Assembly (NCBI GenBank): GCA_913045175.1
Contig: CAJWQG010000011.1
Span: forward strand, 1-64,000
Reading direction: 5' to 3'
Source of the DNA: an uncultured Gammaproteobacteria bacterium
GTDB lineage: Bacteria > Pseudomonadota > Gammaproteobacteria > Pseudomonadales > Azotimanducaceae
DNA: 64,000 bases
Made by a program: the position numbers and the translations under genes. A model generated the notes under the pieces. The model saw only the letters and a program-made list of their open reading frames with translations. It searched no databases and had not been told where the DNA came from. Shown here in pieces: positions 30,155-40,302 of this stretch (position 1 is its first letter; each line of letters starts with the position of its first letter).

Positions 30155-31236
30155 TGACCGAGCGTATTCCTCTTGCCCGCACTGACATTGGGGATGCCGA
30201 GGTGGAAGGCGTGTCACGAGTGATGGAGAGCGGTCGCCTGGCGCTGGGCGAAGAGATGCGCTCGTTTGAACAGTCCTTCGCTGACTATCATGGTGTGTCG
30301 GGTGCGGTGATGGTCAACTCCGGGACTTCCGGACTCATGATTTCACTGCAAGCCCAGGGTGTGGGTTCCGGCGATGAGGTTATTGTGCCGGCGTTGACCT
30401 TTGTTGGTTCGATAAATGCGATATTGGCGGTCGGTGCAACACCCGTCCTGGTTGATGTGGAAAGAGACAGCGCGAATATCGACCCCAACAGAGTTCGGGG
30501 AGCGGTTTCGAGCCAATCGAAATCGATTATGCCGGTACATCTTTACGGCTTGCCCGCGTCCATGTCGGAGATCCTGAATATCGCACAGGCGTGTGAGCTG
30601 ACCGTTATTGAAGATGCCTGTGAAGCGATAGGGGCGGACTATGATGGGAATAAGGTGGGTTCTATCGGTGATGCTGGCGTATTTGGTTTTTATCCGAACA
30701 AAGTGCTCACCACTGGAGAAGGGGGTATGGTCATTTCCAATGACGCCACACTTCTGGCCAGGTGTCGTGCGATGGTAAACCAGGGTCGTGGCGAAGAGAC
30801 TAGCGTTCCCCTTGGGTATTCTCTCCGTGGATCGGAGCTATCTGCCGCAATTGGAAGGGCCCAGCTGACATCGCTGGACACTCGGATCAGCGAACGTGAG
30901 CAAATAGCATTACGTTACGTTGACGCCCTGGCTGCCGTACCTGAAGTGCACCTACTTTCACCGAATTTACCGAGGAGCTGGTTTACATTCCCTGTGTTGT
31001 TGCCTGACGGTGTTGATCGGGCTCGCGTGAAGGATGAACTGGGGAAACAAGGTATCGCCTCAGCCGAGTACTTTCCTGCAATTCAAACGTTACCAGGTTA
31101 CAAGGAGAGGATTAGAGCGTCCTGTGACCTTTTGGTGAGTGAGGACATTGGGCGGCGTGTGTTGTGTCTGCCATTCTGGCGAGGTGTTGAAGTGCACATA
31201 CCGGAAATTATTGAATCTCTGGCGAATTCACTCTGA
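30154..31236 (+). CDS. DegT/DnrJ/EryC1/StrS family aminotransferase
   Basis: VMVNSGTSGLMISLQAQGVGSGDEVIVPALTFVGSINAILAVGATPVLVDVE...FGFYPNKVLTTGEGGMV. Confidence 0.95.
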   Translation: MTERIPLARTDIGDAEVEGVSRVMESGRLALGEEMRSFEQSFADYHGVSGAVMVNSGTSGLMISLQAQGVGSGDEVIVPALTFVGSINAILAVGATPVLVDVERDSANIDPNRVRGAVSSQSKSIMPVHLYGLPASMSEILNIAQACELTVIEDACEAIGADYDGNKVGSIGDAGVFGFYPNKVLTTGEGGMVISNDATLLARCRAMVNQGRGEETSVPLGYSLRGSELSAAIGRAQLTSLDTRISEREQIALRYVDALAAVPEVHLLSPNLPRSWFTFPVLLPDGVDRARVKDELGKQGIASAEYFPAIQTLPGYKERIRASCDLLVSEDIGRRVLCLPFWRGVEVHIPEIIESLANSL

Positions 31237-32214
31237 GGTTTTTGATTTCGCCTGACGAATTCTTTTTTCCAGGGACTCAATGCTTATGTCTGTCTCGGCA
31301 GGGGCAAGTTTCTCAGCAGATAGATACTCATAAAGACTGCTGCGAGTGTGCGCGATGGTATCGTGGCCCAATCGACGCTCCCGCTCATATCGCAATGCAC
31401 CTATATCAATGGGTGCGACTACCACTTTTTCTCCGGGACCCGGGTCCGCCTGTGCGAGGATGCGTCCATCGTAGTCGACCACCATGCTGCCACCCGGCCA
31501 GCTAAACGGTGGGTAATTGCGCATCTCGGCGCCCTGATTGGCGGCGACCACATAGGTCATGTTCTCAAGTGCACGGGTGCGATTAACGAGTGTCCACCAG
31601 TCCATGGGCTCGCTGGCTCCCCAGGGGTCCATGTAGGCGGAAATTCGAATCATGATTTCTGCGCCGCGAAACGCCAATTCACGGATCGTTTCCGGGAATA
31701 ACCAGTCGTAGCAGGTTGCGACCGCGATTTTGCCAAGCTCGGTATCCGCGACGGGAAACACGTCTTCGTTGTAGCCCGCTATGTCATGTGGGCTGGAATG
31801 CACTTCCCACGGTATCCAGGGATTGACCTTGCGATATTTGCTGAGAATTCCAGTAGGTCCAATCAGTACCGTCGTGTTAAAGACGTGTCCGGGATAGGCG
31901 TTATCAACTTCAAGAAACGAACCGGTCTGTATATAGCAGCCGAGCTTGCGCGCGAGTTCAACGTATTGCTCAGTGTGTTCATTGGGTAATTCCACGGCCA
32001 GCTTTTCGGCAAGTTCACCTGCCGTTGGGTAGACTGGAATCGCATGAGCAAACTCTGGAAATGCCAGAAGGCGAACATCAAAGAACGGCTCGTAGCCAAC
32101 AACGGTCTGCTCGACTATTTCACACATCCTGTCTACCCGGGATGAAATTTCCACCCGGGTCTCTGCTGCAGGAAAGTCAATTTGGCACGCGGCACCGTAA
32201 AACGGTGTGGTCAT
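31228..32214 (-). CDS. Carbon-nitrogen hydrolase (nitrilase superfamily)
   Basis: LLAFPEFAHAIPVYP (Glu), KYRKVNPWIPWEVH (Lys), IAVATCYDWLFPETIRELAFRGAEIMIRISAYMDPWG (Cys). Confidence 0.9.
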   Translation of the reverse strand: MTTPFYGAACQIDFPAAETRVEISSRVDRMCEIVEQTVVGYEPFFDVRLLAFPEFAHAIPVYPTAGELAEKLAVELPNEHTEQYVELARKLGCYIQTGSFLEVDNAYPGHVFNTTVLIGPTGILSKYRKVNPWIPWEVHSSPHDIAGYNEDVFPVADTELGKIAVATCYDWLFPETIRELAFRGAEIMIRISAYMDPWGASEPMDWWTLVNRTRALENMTYVVAANQGAEMRNYPPFSWPGGSMVVDYDGRILAQADPGPGEKVVVAPIDIGALRYERERRLGHDTIAHTRSSLYEYLSAEKLAPAETDISIESLEKRIRQAKSKTSE

Positions 32215-32280
32215 GAATTTCTATCCTGGCCTTTTAGGCAATGTATCACACCACGTTGTGATAAATCCCTGCAAACGAGT

Positions 32281-32475
32281 TTACTGCGCCAATGGCAACC
32301 ATATTGTCGGATAGTAGGGAGTTGGGTACGGAACAATGGTGCCATCCACCAGTGTCGTGCCGCCAGGACAGAACCCTGGAATTCGAATGCTGCTGCAGAT
32401 TCTGCTTCTAATGGATTCATATGAAAGATATCCGCCGCTGATCTCTTTGACTTCATTTTGTGTCAGCTCACGCAT
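32281..32475 (-). CDS. Small double-glycine-leader peptide (bacteriocin/microcin-like precursor candidate), 64 aa
   Basis: MRELTQNEVKEISGG|YLSYESIRSRICSSIRIPGFCPGGTTLVDGTIVPYPTPYYPTIWLPLAQ; leader resembles MRELxxxEVxxISGG; SD-like GGAG 8 nt upstream of ATG on the minus strand. Confidence 0.7.
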   Translation of the reverse strand: MRELTQNEVKEISGGYLSYESIRSRICSSIRIPGFCPGGTTLVDGTIVPYPTPYYPTIWLPLAQ

Positions 32476-32547
32476 GGTTTTTACTCCGCCAGTTTGGATG
32501 AAAGTCCAATGTAAGGCATTTGCGCGCAGCCTGATATCGTCATTCTC

Positions 32548-33759
32548 CTAAAGCGTTGTGGGACATCTTTCAATCTTGATCTGGACCACATCGGTTCTGC
32601 CGATATGAAATCCGGCTTCGCAATAGCACAGGTAATACATCCACAGTCGATAGAAACGATCATCGAATCCCTGCTGTTGGAGCCTGGGCCAGGCAGCCTT
32701 GAAACGCATACGCCAGTGTTCAAGTGTAGTGGCATAGTCCTGACCAAAGCGATACAAATCCGTGACGCGCAATCCCTGGCGACCAAGAACTTCGTTAATC
32801 TGTTTAACCGTTGGCAACATACCACCGGGGAAAACGTACTGCTGAATAAAGTCTGGTTGTCGCTGATAGGTATCAAAAGCGTCTTCATCGATGGTAATGA
32901 TCTGCATCGCCGCAATGCCATCTTCAGTCAATAGCGTTGCAAGCTTTTTGGCGAATGTATCCCAATACTCCACCCCAACTGCTTCAAACATTTCGATGGA
33001 TAAAATACGGTCGTATTGGCCTTCGACATCCCGGTAATCCTGGAAACGAGCAGAAACATTTTCGTCTCCGGAGAGCCGCTGGCTCGCGTAGTTTACCTGC
33101 TCACGGGATACCGAGATGCCGTCGGCCTGACAACCAATACTGCCCAGATGCTCCAGCAGTCCGCCCCAACCACAGCCGATTTCCAGGACATGATGTTGAT
33201 CGTTCACTTCGGCAGCTTCGCATAGTCGTGTGTACTTGGCGCACTGTGATGTTTTCAGATCGTCGGTCTGTTCGAAGACCCCCGCTGAGTAGCTCATGCT
33301 CGGGTCGAGCCACTCCTTGTAAAAATCGTTGCCCAGGTCGTAGTGAAATGAAATATTTTTTCGGCTACCTGATTTCGAATTCCGATTCTTTGCGTGCGCC
33401 CATGAGTCTGCAATTCGCTGTAGGCCTGAAGCCTTGGAGAAGCTGTTAAGTTGGTGCAGATTGTCCGCAAGAAGCGCCAGGAGTTCTGGCAGTGAAGTCG
33501 TATCCCATTCCTGTTCGAGATAGCCTTCGGCCAGGCCCACACCACCTCTGTTTAATATCCTGAATAGTGCTCGCCATTTCCGCACGTGAATATCAGCACT
33601 GCGTCCTGCGCGATGACCGTCAATGACCACTTCCCGCTCATTAGGGAGTCGCAGGGTCAGGGTGCCCTGATGAATTTTCCCAGCCAGCGCTCTACTAACC
33701 AGACGACCGACGAAGTTTTCTTCTCTTTCCGAAGTGTCGAATGCGGTGGCTTTATCCAT
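32548..33759 (-). CDS. Cyclopropane-fatty-acyl-phospholipid synthase family methyltransferase
   Basis: FHYDLGNDFYKEWLDPSMSYSAGVFE...VLEIGCGWGGLLEHLGSIGC...SIEMFEAVG...YVFPGGMLPT. Confidence 0.95.
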   Translation of the reverse strand: MDKATAFDTSEREENFVGRLVSRALAGKIHQGTLTLRLPNEREVVIDGHRAGRSADIHVRKWRALFRILNRGGVGLAEGYLEQEWDTTSLPELLALLADNLHQLNSFSKASGLQRIADSWAHAKNRNSKSGSRKNISFHYDLGNDFYKEWLDPSMSYSAGVFEQTDDLKTSQCAKYTRLCEAAEVNDQHHVLEIGCGWGGLLEHLGSIGCQADGISVSREQVNYASQRLSGDENVSARFQDYRDVEGQYDRILSIEMFEAVGVEYWDTFAKKLATLLTEDGIAAMQIITIDEDAFDTYQRQPDFIQQYVFPGGMLPTVKQINEVLGRQGLRVTDLYRFGQDYATTLEHWRMRFKAAWPRLQQQGFDDRFYRLWMYYLCYCEAGFHIGRTDVVQIKIERCPTTL

Positions 33760-34489
33760 GTTGTACTTCCTGCTGTTTTGGTTTGTGGTAGATGCGCAGA
33801 CCCTTTAGCCATAGTCGAAGGGCCTGCCAGTGAATATCGAGTGTGATACCTAAAGTCGCGAGGGGTGCCTGGACGACAGTTTTGACAAGGTTGGGTTTAG
33901 TGAACGGTATGCCCGTACCCTTAAATCCTGCAAACAGACTTGAACCCTCGTCGTCAAAGTAGCGGATTGCAACATTGAGGTCGTGATGGGGCTCGGTCAC
34001 GCTGAACTCATAATGGCCGCTCATGCTGAAAAATGGTGAAACGTGCAGCCGTTTAGTCGTCGGAACATCATGGCCATCGTACTTCTGAATGTAAGCATAT
34101 GATTCACCAAATGTATTGTGTACTTCGTAAAGTACCGCAGTCAACGTCTGACTGTCGCCATGCTCGTAGCAGTAGGCGATTGAGATTGGGTTGAACACAT
34201 AGCCAAATATTCTCGGCATACATATGACCTTGTAGCGCAGGTTGCGCAGCCCTTGCTGAGCCAACAGGTGATCCAGCCACTGGCGATAGGGGGTCCCGTC
34301 CTGGGCACCATGGTCTTCGTCGTAGAAGCTGACGATTCCTGGCTTATTGACGGTAAACAATCTGCCGACTCGCAGGTTTTCCAACTCTTCCAGGTCAAAC
34401 AGGAACCAGGGTAGCCGGTGGGTAAAACGATGTTCAACGCCACCGGTCCTGTGATGTACTACTAGCCCTCGATAGATCGTCGAATTCAT
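33752..34489 (-). CDS. DUF1365 domain-containing protein
   Basis: VVHHRTGGVEHRFTHRLPWFLFDLEEL...MPRIFGYVFNPISIAYCYEHG...LHVSPFFSMSGHYEF. Confidence 0.9.
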   Translation of the reverse strand: MNSTIYRGLVVHHRTGGVEHRFTHRLPWFLFDLEELENLRVGRLFTVNKPGIVSFYDEDHGAQDGTPYRQWLDHLLAQQGLRNLRYKVICMPRIFGYVFNPISIAYCYEHGDSQTLTAVLYEVHNTFGESYAYIQKYDGHDVPTTKRLHVSPFFSMSGHYEFSVTEPHHDLNVAIRYFDDEGSSLFAGFKGTGIPFTKPNLVKTVVQAPLATLGITLDIHWQALRLWLKGLRIYHKPKQQEVQHG

Positions 34490-35769
34490 GCGGCTGCCTG
34501 GCGCTCTCGTACAAATATTCTGGTGTTTGACCCGCCCCAGGGCCGAGACTGACCGGTAATTTCCTCTGCGACAGCCAGGCCTGATTGAAGGCCGTCTTCG
34601 TGAAACCCATGACCAAAATAGGCGCCGCAGAACCAGGTGCGCTGATTACCCTGAAGGTCCCAGAGTTGAGTACGGGCTGTCGCTGTCGCGTTGTTTAGTA
34701 TTGGATGGGTGTAGTCAAACTCCTTCAGGATTCCGTTTGGAGTGAAGGGTGGGTTGAGCGTGATGAATATGTCCTGGTCAGTGTTCAGGTTTTGTAACAG
34801 ATTCATCCAGTAGGTGACGCACAATCCATCGGACCCATGATCCAGATAATTCCAGCTTGCCCAGGCTCGCCGTTTGCCAGGCATGAGCCTTTCATCAGTA
34901 TGTAGGTAGGCCTTGCTTGGTGAGTATTTGAAATTGCCCAGAATTTTTTGTTCGTTGGCACTGGGGGTGTCGAGCAGACCCAGTGCCTGATCAGCATGGG
35001 TTGCTAGCACTATATGGTCGAATTTATCGATGATGCCGTTCCAGTGTATACGAACCTGGTTGGGGTCTCTTTCCACGCCGGTTATTCTGGCATTCAGGTT
35101 AATGGTGATGCCGGGTGTGGTTAGTATTTTCCTTACGTAAGAAATGCTTCCACCATCGACGGTATACCAGGGGGGTCTGTCGCGAAGTTGCAGCAGTCCA
35201 TGGTTCATGAAGAAATCGATGAAGGAGCGGGCTTGCATGTGCCCGACTTCGTTGATGTCAGTTGACCAGATCGCGGCGGCCATCGGCAGCAGATGGTTTT
35301 TCGCGAAGCTGTCCGAATAGTTCTCCAGCAGTTCGAACAAGGTCGTTTCCAGACTGATCTCCAGCCCGGGTGCTTTCTCATAGAAATCTCGAATGTCTTT
35401 TACCATTGACCAGAAGCTGGGACGAAAAATATTGCTTCGCTGAGCCAAAAGACCATTCAGTCCGTGTCCGGCATACTCCAGTCCGCTCGCGCTCGACACA
35501 GCGAATGACATGTTGGTGGGTGTGGTTGGTACATCAAGGTGGTTGAACAGCGCCGTAAGATTGGGATAGGTCGCTTCATTATATACGATGAATCCCGCAT
35601 CCACAGGTACGACAGCATCTCCGATCGTCGGGAATACGGTGTTTGCGTGACCTCCAGCCTGGTCTGCAGCTTCTATCAGGGTGACCTCGACCCCGGCTCG
35701 TGCCAGTAGCCATGCTGCAGCCAGTCCGGATACTCCGCTGCCGATCACGGCAATTGACGTTTTTTTCAT
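34486..35769 (-). CDS. FAD-dependent oxidoreductase (amine oxidase-like)
   Basis: IAVIGSGVSGLAAAWLLARAGVEVTLIEAADQAGGHANTV ... WFCGAYFGHGFHEDGLQSGLAVAEEI. Confidence 0.95.
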   Translation of the reverse strand: MKKTSIAVIGSGVSGLAAAWLLARAGVEVTLIEAADQAGGHANTVFPTIGDAVVPVDAGFIVYNEATYPNLTALFNHLDVPTTPTNMSFAVSSASGLEYAGHGLNGLLAQRSNIFRPSFWSMVKDIRDFYEKAPGLEISLETTLFELLENYSDSFAKNHLLPMAAAIWSTDINEVGHMQARSFIDFFMNHGLLQLRDRPPWYTVDGGSISYVRKILTTPGITINLNARITGVERDPNQVRIHWNGIIDKFDHIVLATHADQALGLLDTPSANEQKILGNFKYSPSKAYLHTDERLMPGKRRAWASWNYLDHGSDGLCVTYWMNLLQNLNTDQDIFITLNPPFTPNGILKEFDYTHPILNNATATARTQLWDLQGNQRTWFCGAYFGHGFHEDGLQSGLAVAEEITGQSRPWGGSNTRIFVRERQAAA

Positions 35770-35826
35770 TTGTGCCTGCGTTGACTATATAGTTGTATTG
35801 GAACTGGTTACGTCCTTCTTATTAAT

Positions 35827-36441
35827 TTGGATGAATATCATCCGTTTTTGGATTTAACACGTAGACGATTCATGAGAGGAACAATGCAACAGTCGGGTGA
35901 ACCGGAAATAGACCAAGAGTCCAGCTTATTGCTGGCGATTGGTAATAATCAGAGTCAACAGGCATATGTTGAATTATTCGAGCTGATGGCCCCTAAAATC
36001 AAATCTTTTTTGATGGGGCGTGGTAGCAGTGTCGATGAGAGTGAGAATGTAACGCAGGATGCGATGTTGTCCGTCTGGCGAAAGGCTGACCTGTTTGATC
36101 CGAATAAGGCTTCAGCGCGTACCTGGGTATACGCAATCGTCCGAAATCGACTGATTGACGTTCAGCGTAAAACTTCTCGGGTTGATCGGGGAAATAAGAA
36201 GTATCGGTACCAAAGTGGTAATGATTTTATTAGCAATGGCGGGGTAAACGATGCTTCTGCACAGGCCCAGCTACAAAGGTTGTTGCAGGAACTACCCGAT
36301 GAACAATCGCAACCCCTAGTGATGAGTTATGTGCAGGGTATGTCACACAAGGAAATCGCAAATAAAATTGGATTGCCGCTAGGGACAGTGAAGTCTCGAA
36401 TTCGTATGGGCTTTCAACGTTTACAAGAAATGGTTAATTAA
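35827..36441 (+). CDS. ECF-type RNA polymerase sigma factor
   Basis: ESENVTQDAMLSVWRKADLFDPNKASARTWVYAIVRNRLIDVQRK...VMSYVQGMSHKEIANKIGLPLGTVKSRIRMGFQRL; ATG at 35884 is a possible alternative start. Confidence 0.95.
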   Translation: MDEYHPFLDLTRRRFMRGTMQQSGEPEIDQESSLLLAIGNNQSQQAYVELFELMAPKIKSFLMGRGSSVDESENVTQDAMLSVWRKADLFDPNKASARTWVYAIVRNRLIDVQRKTSRVDRGNKKYRYQSGNDFISNGGVNDASAQAQLQRLLQELPDEQSQPLVMSYVQGMSHKEIANKIGLPLGTVKSRIRMGFQRLQEMVN

Positions 36442-36442
36442 T

Positions 36443-37081
36443 ATGAGTACTTCAAACCATCCAGATCAGGCCTGGTTTGTCAGCTATGCAGCTGGTAGCC
36501 TGACACCATCGTTCAATCTTTTGCTTCAGGCACATTTGGCTGTCTGTTCACAATGCCGCTGCGGATTGAAAAAGGCGGATGAGATTGGCGCACAGTTTAT
36601 GTTCGGTGGCGAAGAAGCGCCGATGGATAATTTCGAAATGCCGAATCCCCAGCTAGGGGTGAATCAGAATGAGTCCATAGAGTGGGGTAAAGATGAGGTG
36701 ACCGATCTGTCACAGTTCTTCGATCACTATATCGGTACTCATCTGGACGGCTTGCAGTGGATGAATGCAGGTAAGGGGCTTCAACTATGTAAGTTGTCGG
36801 ATAGCGACGACGACAAGATGTTGATGCTCAGAGCAGCCCCGGGAACGGTCCTTCCTAAACATAGACACAATGGTAGCGAGTTGACGCTGGTTCTGAAGGG
36901 AGCATATTTCTGTGAGGACGCCCTTTTTAAGGTGGGCGACATTGAAGATGCAGACGATACGACACTTCATCAACCGGTAGTTACCAACGATAGCGAATGT
37001 ATTTGTGTCGCAGCCGTTGACGGTCCGCTGAGATTTTCCGGATTGCTACAACGCGTCGCGCAGCCGTTTCTCGGTATATAA
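36443..37081 (+). CDS. ChrR-like cupin/zinc anti-sigma factor
   Basis: ZAS-like HLAVCSQC (Hx3Cx2C) then cupin APGTVLPKHRHNGSELTLVLKGAYFCEDALFKVGDIEDADDTTLHQPV; adjacent to ECF sigma. Confidence 0.9.
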   Translation: MSTSNHPDQAWFVSYAAGSLTPSFNLLLQAHLAVCSQCRCGLKKADEIGAQFMFGGEEAPMDNFEMPNPQLGVNQNESIEWGKDEVTDLSQFFDHYIGTHLDGLQWMNAGKGLQLCKLSDSDDDKMLMLRAAPGTVLPKHRHNGSELTLVLKGAYFCEDALFKVGDIEDADDTTLHQPVVTNDSECICVAAVDGPLRFSGLLQRVAQPFLGI

Positions 37082-37082
37082 G

Positions 37083-37976
37083 ATGACGTTACCGACCAAG
37101 GCATTGATCGTCGTTATGGCGTCGCCTTTTGTTGCGCTTGGGTTGATACTGATATCCGGACGTGACGGTGTGTTACTGGGACAGATTCCGGTATTCGATC
37201 TCTGCATTGCGGTTGCTTTCCTCTGCCAATGGCTAGCGTTTGTACCGTCTTATCTTTATCAGACGGAACATTATTTTGATCTGTCTGGCAGCGCGACCTA
37301 CATCTCTGTGGCGACGCTTGCGCTGGTTTTTGGCGCATCGGGTGACCCGCGAAGCATTCTGCTAGCTACACTTATCATGGTCTGGGCGATCCGCCTTGGC
37401 ACGTTTCTATTCAGTCGTGTTCGTAAGAAAGGTTCCGACTCGCGCTTCGTGGAAATACTACCGAGCTTTCGCGTGAATCTGTTGACCTGGACGTTGCAGG
37501 CTATTTGGGTTTCCGTTACGGCTGCCTGTGCGCTGGTCGCAATTACGTCAGCAACTAAGGTCCCGATAGACGGTTGGGCGATCCTGGGGCTGATCCTCTG
37601 GTGTGCTGGATTTGCTATTGAAGTCATTGCCGATCATCAGAAGCAGGTTTTCAGGTCGAAACCAGAGAACGCTCGTCGGTTTATTACTACGGGACTGTGG
37701 GCCTGGTCTAGACATCCAAACTATCTGGGCGAGATTATGCTGTGGACTGGTGTTGCCGTTATGGCGTTGCCTGTGCTGCAGGGATGGCAGTTTCTCACAT
37801 TGATGTCTCCGTTTTTTGTCTACTATCTTTTGACCAGGGTGAGCGGTATCGAAATGCAGGAACGTCAGAACGATAAGACGTGGAGCTCAGATCCCACGTA
37901 CTGGAGATACAAAGAAACGACGCCTGCGCTCTGGCCTTTGACCAGGATCTCTGGCTCACAGCAATCGGCGCTCTAA
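37083..37976 (+). CDS. DUF1295 family membrane protein (steroid 5-alpha-reductase-like fold)
   Basis: FAIEVIADHQKQVFRSKPENARRFITTGLWAWSRHPNYLGEIMLWTGVAVMALP. Confidence 0.95.
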   Translation: MTLPTKALIVVMASPFVALGLILISGRDGVLLGQIPVFDLCIAVAFLCQWLAFVPSYLYQTEHYFDLSGSATYISVATLALVFGASGDPRSILLATLIMVWAIRLGTFLFSRVRKKGSDSRFVEILPSFRVNLLTWTLQAIWVSVTAACALVAITSATKVPIDGWAILGLILWCAGFAIEVIADHQKQVFRSKPENARRFITTGLWAWSRHPNYLGEIMLWTGVAVMALPVLQGWQFLTLMSPFFVYYLLTRVSGIEMQERQNDKTWSSDPTYWRYKETTPALWPLTRISGSQQSAL

Positions 37977-38026: not shown

Positions 38027-40302
38027 ATGCCGCTCTTGTTCTTCCTTTTCTTGTAGTCAGGCGCTAGGGGTCTCGTCTATGAATCATTGTGGACCCACTA
38101 TCTAAGACTTTTTCTCGGACATACTGCCGACGCGCAAACGCTGGTGCTTCTGCTGTTCATGGGTGGTATGGCTATACGTGCCTGGCTGGCTAGCCGGCGC
38201 AATCACCAGAATCCCTTGCAGCTATACGCAATTGTCGAAGGCTTGATCGGTGTGATCGCACTGTTATTTCATTTGGTCTTTACTCGAGTGACCAATGTGG
38301 CCTTCATGGAAATCTTTCCAGCCGCTAATGGGCCCCTGCTGATCGAGGCATTGAAGTGGATGATTGCCGCATTATTTGTGATGCCGGGATCTATATTGTT
38401 GGGTGCGACATTTTCCCTGATGGTGACGGGGCTATTACGCCGCTATCAATTAGAAGCGGGAAGACTGGTTGCCTCGCTGTATTTTGTTAATAGTCTTGGT
38501 GCGGCGATTGGTGTTTTGATTTGCGGTTTCTGGCTGATAGCAAGATGCGGCTTACCAGGCTCCATGCTGATCGCTGGTGCCATCAACATACTGCTCGCGA
38601 TAGTTGTGTATGTGTTGAGCAGGCGACCGATCACCCAGCCGCCTGCCAGTCCGGGTTCTGCTGGCGAGCCTTCTCCCGACAGGTTGCTTGTTCTCGTAGC
38701 GCTAATGACCGGCCTCGCATCCTTTGTTTACGAGATTGCCTGGATTCGGATGCTGAGTCTTGTGCTGGGGTCGTCTACTCATGCATTTGAGCTGATGCTA
38801 AGCGCGTTTGTGCTGGGTCTTGCGCTCGGTGGCTACTGGGTTCGACACCGAATAGTCAGGCTGACTCAGCCAATTGTGTTTCTTGGCAAAGTCCAACTCA
38901 TCATGGGTGTGATGGCTTTACTCAGCATGCTTGTCTATGAGCAATCCTTTTACTGGATGCAGCTGAGATCGCCGTGATTGGCATGGGTTCGGGCATCACC
39001 ACCCACACGCTGCTGGCAAGTCCCGGGGTTAAACGCTTGGATACTGTGGAGATCGAGCCGGCGATGGTGGCAGGCGCACGTTTTTTTGGTGAACGTTCAC
39101 AAAGAGCGTTTACGGATTCGCGGAGCAACATTGCGATCGATGACGCGCGAACCTATTTCACCAAACGCAACGCTCGCTACGACCTGATTGTGTCGGAACC
39201 TTCTAATCCGTGGGTTAGTAGCGTTTCTTCAGTATTTAGTCGTGAATTCTATCGACAAGTTACTCGATATCTGGAACCCGATGGCCTATTCGTGCAATGG
39301 CTACATCTATATGAGTCGAATGAAGCACTGGTCTTTTCAGTGCTTAACGCGCTGGAGGGACAATTTGCCTACTACGATATTTATTTTGCGGTTGACGGTG
39401 ATGTGATCATCATCGCAAACGTCGATTCGCCGCTACCGAGATTGGTGGATGCGATACCGGAGGGTTTAGGCGACGAACTTGGGCGACTGGGCATTAACAG
39501 CACTGATGACATTCGCGTACGGTACCTGGTATCCAGGTCGCACATCACCACTGTTTCACCGCTCTATCCGACCATCAATATGGACTACTTCCCGTTTTTG
39601 GATCTGCAATCGACTAAAGCCCGGTTCAAAGGAGAGCAATCTAACTTGCTGGTAGATATCAGAACTTCTCTCCTACCGATTGATGAGGTCGTTATTGGCA
39701 ATATTGCACCGAGGACCCAACTCAATCTTACTGAAACAGGGATAGTGCAAAATCCGTTGGTTGCGCTTGTTCGACAGGCGAAGGTGCTGAGCACTGCAAT
39801 CACTGATCCAGGTAACAACGAATCCCTGACGGACTTTGACCGACGGCTCCTCTTTGATCTTCAATCAATTCGACTCGCTTGTGAAAATCGCATTGATATC
39901 TCTTTGTGGGAGGAATCGCTCATGGGGTTTGCGGGAACGCTGCTGTTTTTGTCACCTGGGGAATTGCCGCCGGTGTGGGAAATCTTGTCCGAGCATCAGT
40001 GTGATGATGCGGAGTCATTGCAGGCCAAGAGATGGCTGATGCTCCTCGAAGCGTTGAGCCAGCGACATATGGATCGCCTGACTGTGCTATCTGACGAGTT
40101 GTTGCAGGGTCGAAATCCGGATTCGTCAACCGTCAGGTTTCTTAAGACAGTTAAGGCGATGGTGTTAACGGCTGAAGGACAATCTTCGAGGGCGATCGAT
40201 TCCATCCACGAGAATGAACTCGTTAACGATAACGCACATATCGCCACTAAACTCATGTATCTGCATGCGCTAGCTGAGGAAGCCAGATCCAATCCTGATT
40301 GA
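38027..40302 (+). pseudogene. Fused membrane/spermidine synthase-like protein, apparently inactivated
   Basis: In-frame TAG (38054-38056) between MPLLFFLFL and SGARGLVYESLWTHYLRLFLGH; TM ORF stops at 38977, and synthase ORF starts directly at the SAM motif (IGMGSGITTH) in another frame. Confidence 0.7.

Follow-up and report, generated by a model that had tools for sequence, protein, structure and literature searches.

The 64-aa peptide gene at positions 32281-32475 of the window (the whole stretch of 64,000 nucleotides that was analyzed) encodes a precursor with a double-glycine leader, and we consider it probable that this peptide belongs to a shared, remote exporter as its substrate, most likely as the relict of a decaying peptide-secretion system. 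The identity of the leader, the presence of other leader genes in the same genome, the lesions of the exporter and the losses in a sister species are observed, and from them we infer a former function as an exported peptide, with a cleavage mechanism adopted from the literature. The features concerned are as follows.

32281..32475, minus strand: gene of the 64-aa double-glycine-leader precursor peptide, stop codon included (sequence and leader profile).
32431..32475, minus strand: 15-codon leader MRELTQNEVKEISGG (sequence, consensus of 27 leaders).
32284..32430, minus strand: predicted 49-aa core with two Cys and a Pro/Tyr-rich C-terminus, no relatives detected.
32484..32487, minus strand: GGAG, ribosome-binding-site-like, 8 nt from the ATG.
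32548..33759, minus strand: cyclopropane-fatty-acid (CFA) synthase, the upstream neighbor (PF02353, E=7e-73).
31228..32214, minus strand: carbon-nitrogen hydrolase, the downstream neighbor (PF00795) and anchor of the synteny comparison.
32252..32431, minus strand: approximately 180 bp absent from the sister species G001 (alignment; ends uncertain by 1-2 nt).

On re-reading, the open reading frame proved to be as the first-pass annotation had described it, with 64 aa at 32281-32475, GGAG 8 nt 5' of the ATG and a distance of 72 bp from the CFA-synthase stop on the same strand. Its translation consists of MRELTQNEVKEISGG followed by YLSYESIRSRICSSIRIPGFCPGGTTLVDGTIVPYPTPYYPTIWLPLAQ, split after Gly-Gly, and the unmodified predicted core of 49 aa has a mass of 5464 Da (5.46 kDa). 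Adjoining the gene, we recognized neither an exporter nor an immunity gene nor a modification enzyme; the small ORFs near it are without support as genes, and its flanks are the CFA synthase and the carbon-nitrogen hydrolase. Elsewhere in the window (34486-37976), genes for an amine oxidase-like protein, a DUF1365 protein and a CFA synthase diverge from those for an ECF sigma factor, a ChrR-cupin-like protein (PF12973) and a DUF1295 protein. Further along, at 38087-40302 on the plus strand, two overlapping ORFs encode a membrane-like protein of 296 aa and a spermine-synthase-like protein of 442 aa (PF01564); this pair looks like a single fused gene split in two, perhaps with a deletion inside it or a shifted frame near 38970.

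By consensus, profile and conservation, MRELTQNEVKEISGG is a genuine double-glycine leader of the type cut by C39-peptidase ABC exporters, as had been proposed. The consensus for Gram-negative double-glycine leaders, M(R/K)ELX3E(I/L)X2(I/V)XG(G/A) (Dirix et al. 2004, as quoted in PMC3140520), is matched at every fixed position but -7, where V replaces I/L, a conservative change that is present in several leaders of the family. In the LahT150 structure, hydrophobic residues at -12, -7 and -4 dock into the C39 domain (PMC6363468), and the target leader carries hydrophobic residues at these groove-contact positions, so that its C39-recognition positions read L-12, V-7, I-4, G-2 and G-1. A strict DNA pattern of the leader yielded 30 matches in 25 of the 121 family genomes versus 0 in the reversed control, and nearly all of these matches stand at the start of a small ORF (52-114 aa), in most cases preceded by GGAG or AGGA, resembling a ribosome-binding site. 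When a 15-position profile built from 27 leaders was run against the peptide's own genome, the target site scored E=4.2e-7, a value that is somewhat flattered because the target leader is itself one of the 27 profile rows. Besides its spread through the family, the leader is kept at the orthologous site of G001. An ORF of 64 aa would carry little weight by itself, but the leader is highly specific. Reversed controls and conservation in G001 together refute a chance origin of the leader; that the whole ORF arose by chance and merely happens to begin like a leader would suit a core that has no relatives, but against these two results it is scarcely credible.

The exporter that such a leader calls for is found at a distance and in a broken state. 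A single C39 match exists in the host genome, on contig C63, where it belongs to a pair of HlyD and C39-ABC (PCAT) genes adjoining SDR/metA, and this remnant (L032:5936-8740) is decayed. The HlyD gene contains an in-frame TAG, while the ABC gene has a frameshift around L032:7870 and an in-frame TAA at L032:8510-8512, and it ends abruptly where Walker A should start, with unrelated sequence onward to the contig end. As it reads in the assembly, the sole C39 exporter of the host genome is a pseudogene, marked by two in-frame stops, a frameshift and a truncation. No second copy of the exporter and no matching ATPase end were found elsewhere in the host genome. The orthologous pair in G002, which likewise adjoins SDR and metA, keeps its frame open through Walker A up to the contig end, and C39-ABC genes are open in most family members. 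The last, unrelated 140 bp of C63 contain a minus-strand open frame that runs off the contig, possibly the product of an insertion or rearrangement.

The first-pass annotation had held that export would require a distant transporter, which is right in principle, but in the host genome that transporter exists solely as a pseudogene. It had also named the lack of any C39-type exporter in the genome as counting against its proposal, and this is in substance what was found, one such exporter being present and disrupted. A functional cognate C39-ABC exporter, on which present activity would depend but the identity of the leader does not, is thus missing from the host genome, its only locus being disrupted; the peptide is therefore most likely a relict that cannot be exported by this route.

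The weight of this argument depends on the exporter lesions being real. The host assembly comprises 126 contigs and is 98% complete, and because the locus sits at a contig end of this fragmented assembly, the reality of the lesions in the population is the main uncertainty; some of them, though probably not all, could stem from misassembly or from a mixture of strains. Should an intact PCAT be missing from the assembly or corrupted in it, the peptide may still be exported and cleaved, acting as a bacteriocin or signal. The intact core ORF, Shine-Dalgarno sequence and leader agree with this, as do the two other intact-looking leader peptides of the host genome, the open C39-ABC genes of most relatives and the contig-end position. 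We regard it as unlikely, though deserving of consideration, since three inactivating changes and a truncation fall within approximately 2.5 kb, the nearly complete genome holds no other C39 gene, and G001 independently shows the loss of the same system.

A further possibility concerns what is left of the exporter. In a lone C39-domain ORF of 237 aa on C63, inspection by eye shows Cys, His and Asp still where the catalytic residues should lie, which makes cleavage without export conceivable. This fragment or another protease could trim the precursor, and the core could be handled by another ABC exporter or by none; many further ABC exporter-like genes are present in the host genome. Activity by such a route appears improbable, as the fragment lacks the ATPase altogether and has an incomplete membrane domain, and the evolution of the leader is relaxed. 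Slimmer still is the prospect that the peptide stayed useful after exporter loss, trimmed by the C39 fragment or served by another transporter, and that its unprecedented Cys/Pro/Tyr-rich core has an activity of a new kind.

The sister species G001 documents a more advanced stage of the decay that we propose. Its CFA synthase is 87% identical to that of the host, and downstream of it, in the same place as in the host (public contig PASO01000049.1), a leader is retained as MRQMTQRELEEISGG. After Gly-Gly, however, the reading frame runs only through CDKLRKKPI to a stop (locus L181, translation MRQMTQRELEEISGGCDKLRKKPI*), and the roughly 180 bp listed above are missing. This coreless leader is the sole match to the leader profile in the G001 genome, and no C39 gene was found there; at the same SDR, a degenerate stretch resembling the 5' part of HlyD alone remains. 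Between the G001 and host leaders, 5 of 15 residues differ, with a dN of 0.19 versus 0.05-0.06 in the flanking genes (Fisher p=0.025), and such faster change is expected if constraint on the leader has been relaxed. We infer that the core was lost in G001 rather than gained in the host, because a leader without payload has no evident use; no outgroup carries the target peptide. Neither leader nor C39 was found in G004 and G005.

The comparison of relatives also bears on the neighboring operon, with which the first-pass annotation had linked the peptide through possible co-transcription. Under that proposal, the 64-aa ORF would be a membrane-acting, functional partner of a lipid-modification operon, co-transcribed with CFA synthase. 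The shared strand and the short interval downstream of CFA synthase fit, and no terminator-like site was found between the two genes, which is a weak test; counts in the terminator/promoter scan were at background. However, the junction between CFA synthase and hydrolase varies, spanning 333 bp in the host, 153 bp in G001 and about 84-100 bp in G004 and G005, where the peptide is absent, and holding other genes instead in G003 and G006. G001 retains the operon without the core, and the remaining leader peptides of the host adjoin unrelated genes. Judged by this synteny, the tie between peptide and CFA synthase is positional, not functional, a role in lipid modification is unsupported, and the partnership is very improbable.

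A search of the host genome for more such leaders, which had been suggested, revealed two further double-glycine peptides at unrelated loci, giving three in all. The second peptide (79 aa, L033:7853-8092, plus strand, C25:31852, MRELTQGEVKQVSGGFAGTPIPF...) has no Pfam match and lies between an ammonium-transporter-like and a MoxR-like gene, named by inspection. Its core, FAGTPIPFxNxFIPGPNWPGG...MTxGEAxYxT, is common to G006, G119 and G007, and its C-terminus also occurs in G096. The third (66 aa, L186:1366-1656, minus strand, C13:13600, ...LRELTDEEVSQVSGGLLPV...) is homologous to a peptide on contig C177 of G002 (L182:1477-1686) and reaches 21.8 bits in TIGR03949, just above the cut-off of 21.5; the C-termini of the two homologues differ, possibly through a frameshift near the end.

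No exporter was found near either of these two peptides, and when nine proteins, exporters or HlyD, served as tblastn queries, no exporter genes came up within approximately 1.5 kb of any of the 30 family leader peptides. Conversely, a relaxed leader scan (0 matches in the reversed control) found no leader peptides beside the family exporters examined. The peptide had been described as an orphan; it does lack an adjacent exporter, but there is nothing unusual in this, since orphan status is the rule in the family. The two components nevertheless occur together at the level of genomes, with a strong C39 match in all 17 genomes that have leader genes, compared with 26 of the 44 that lack them (p=0.0012, a statistic that ignores phylogeny). 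In G137, contig C76 (L082/L084) carries a tandem pair of leader peptides with identical leaders and different cores, which suggests duplication with divergence of the core.

Taken together, we propose that a small, dispersed set of peptide genes, three of them in the host, was once served by one remote pair of HlyD and PCAT beside SDR/metA. In a working member of the family, by analogy with characterized systems, the C39 domain would hold the helix of the leader by L-12, V-7 and I-4 and cut after Gly-Gly, and the ABC-HlyD-outer-membrane channel would send out the 49-aa core. In the host, the exporter would have become a pseudogene, leaving the peptide no longer exportable by that route; in G001 decay would have gone further, with the exporter gone save for the HlyD fossil and the core missing behind a kept leader. 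The core frame of the target is open across its 49 codons, without a stop, and the two other host peptides are likewise open, which speaks against this reading; had the exporter died long ago, further decay might be anticipated, so its loss may be recent.

This case offers a concrete snapshot of the decay of a peptide-export system, with the exporter inactivated in one species and lost in its sister, where the payload is missing behind the leader. It also indicates that, in a marine gammaproteobacterial family, peptides of this kind usually sit apart from their exporter. Bacteriocin mining based on neighborhood would therefore miss them, and mining based on leaders alone would count relicts as producers.

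Comparison with known peptide classes places the target by its leader. A Pfam search of the 64-aa peptide gave no match, and no relatives of the 49-aa core were found in 207 family genomes, GTDB contigs, viral contigs or plasmids; weak core matches in family genomes (L004, L163, L164 and L166) were judged to be chance, lying opposite or inside larger ORFs and having no GG leader. The target is not a member of the class IIb bacteriocin family lactobin A/cerein 7B (NCBIfam TIGR03949), against which it scores 12.7 bits with a cut-off of 21.5; leader residues 3-15 are alignable and nothing else. With the FAGTPIPF...PGPNWPGG peptides described above it shares the same leader, but past it there is no convincing alignment, and homology of the cores was not accepted on the mere short IPG..PGG likeness.

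Class II microcins form a five-part system (PMC9746304), which the target precursor resembles in its GG leader and, by assumption, in PCAT and HlyD-type export. Unlike these, it has no recognized immunity gene, its core is not Gly/Ala-rich, any antibacterial or signaling activity of that core is putative, and the PCAT/HlyD pair, which should be present and intact, is broken in the host. The closest likeness is to Gram-negative double-glycine leader peptides in general: leader length, the MREL start, E at -8, hydrophobic residues at -7 and -4 and the GG end all agree, and most relatives of the host encode C39 exporters. The target differs from them in the V at -7, in a core unlike any found, in having no exporter nearby and in that the exporter of its own genome is a pseudogene. 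Its core is without a detectable relative, and the peptide itself, judged by its leader, is of a known bacterial type.
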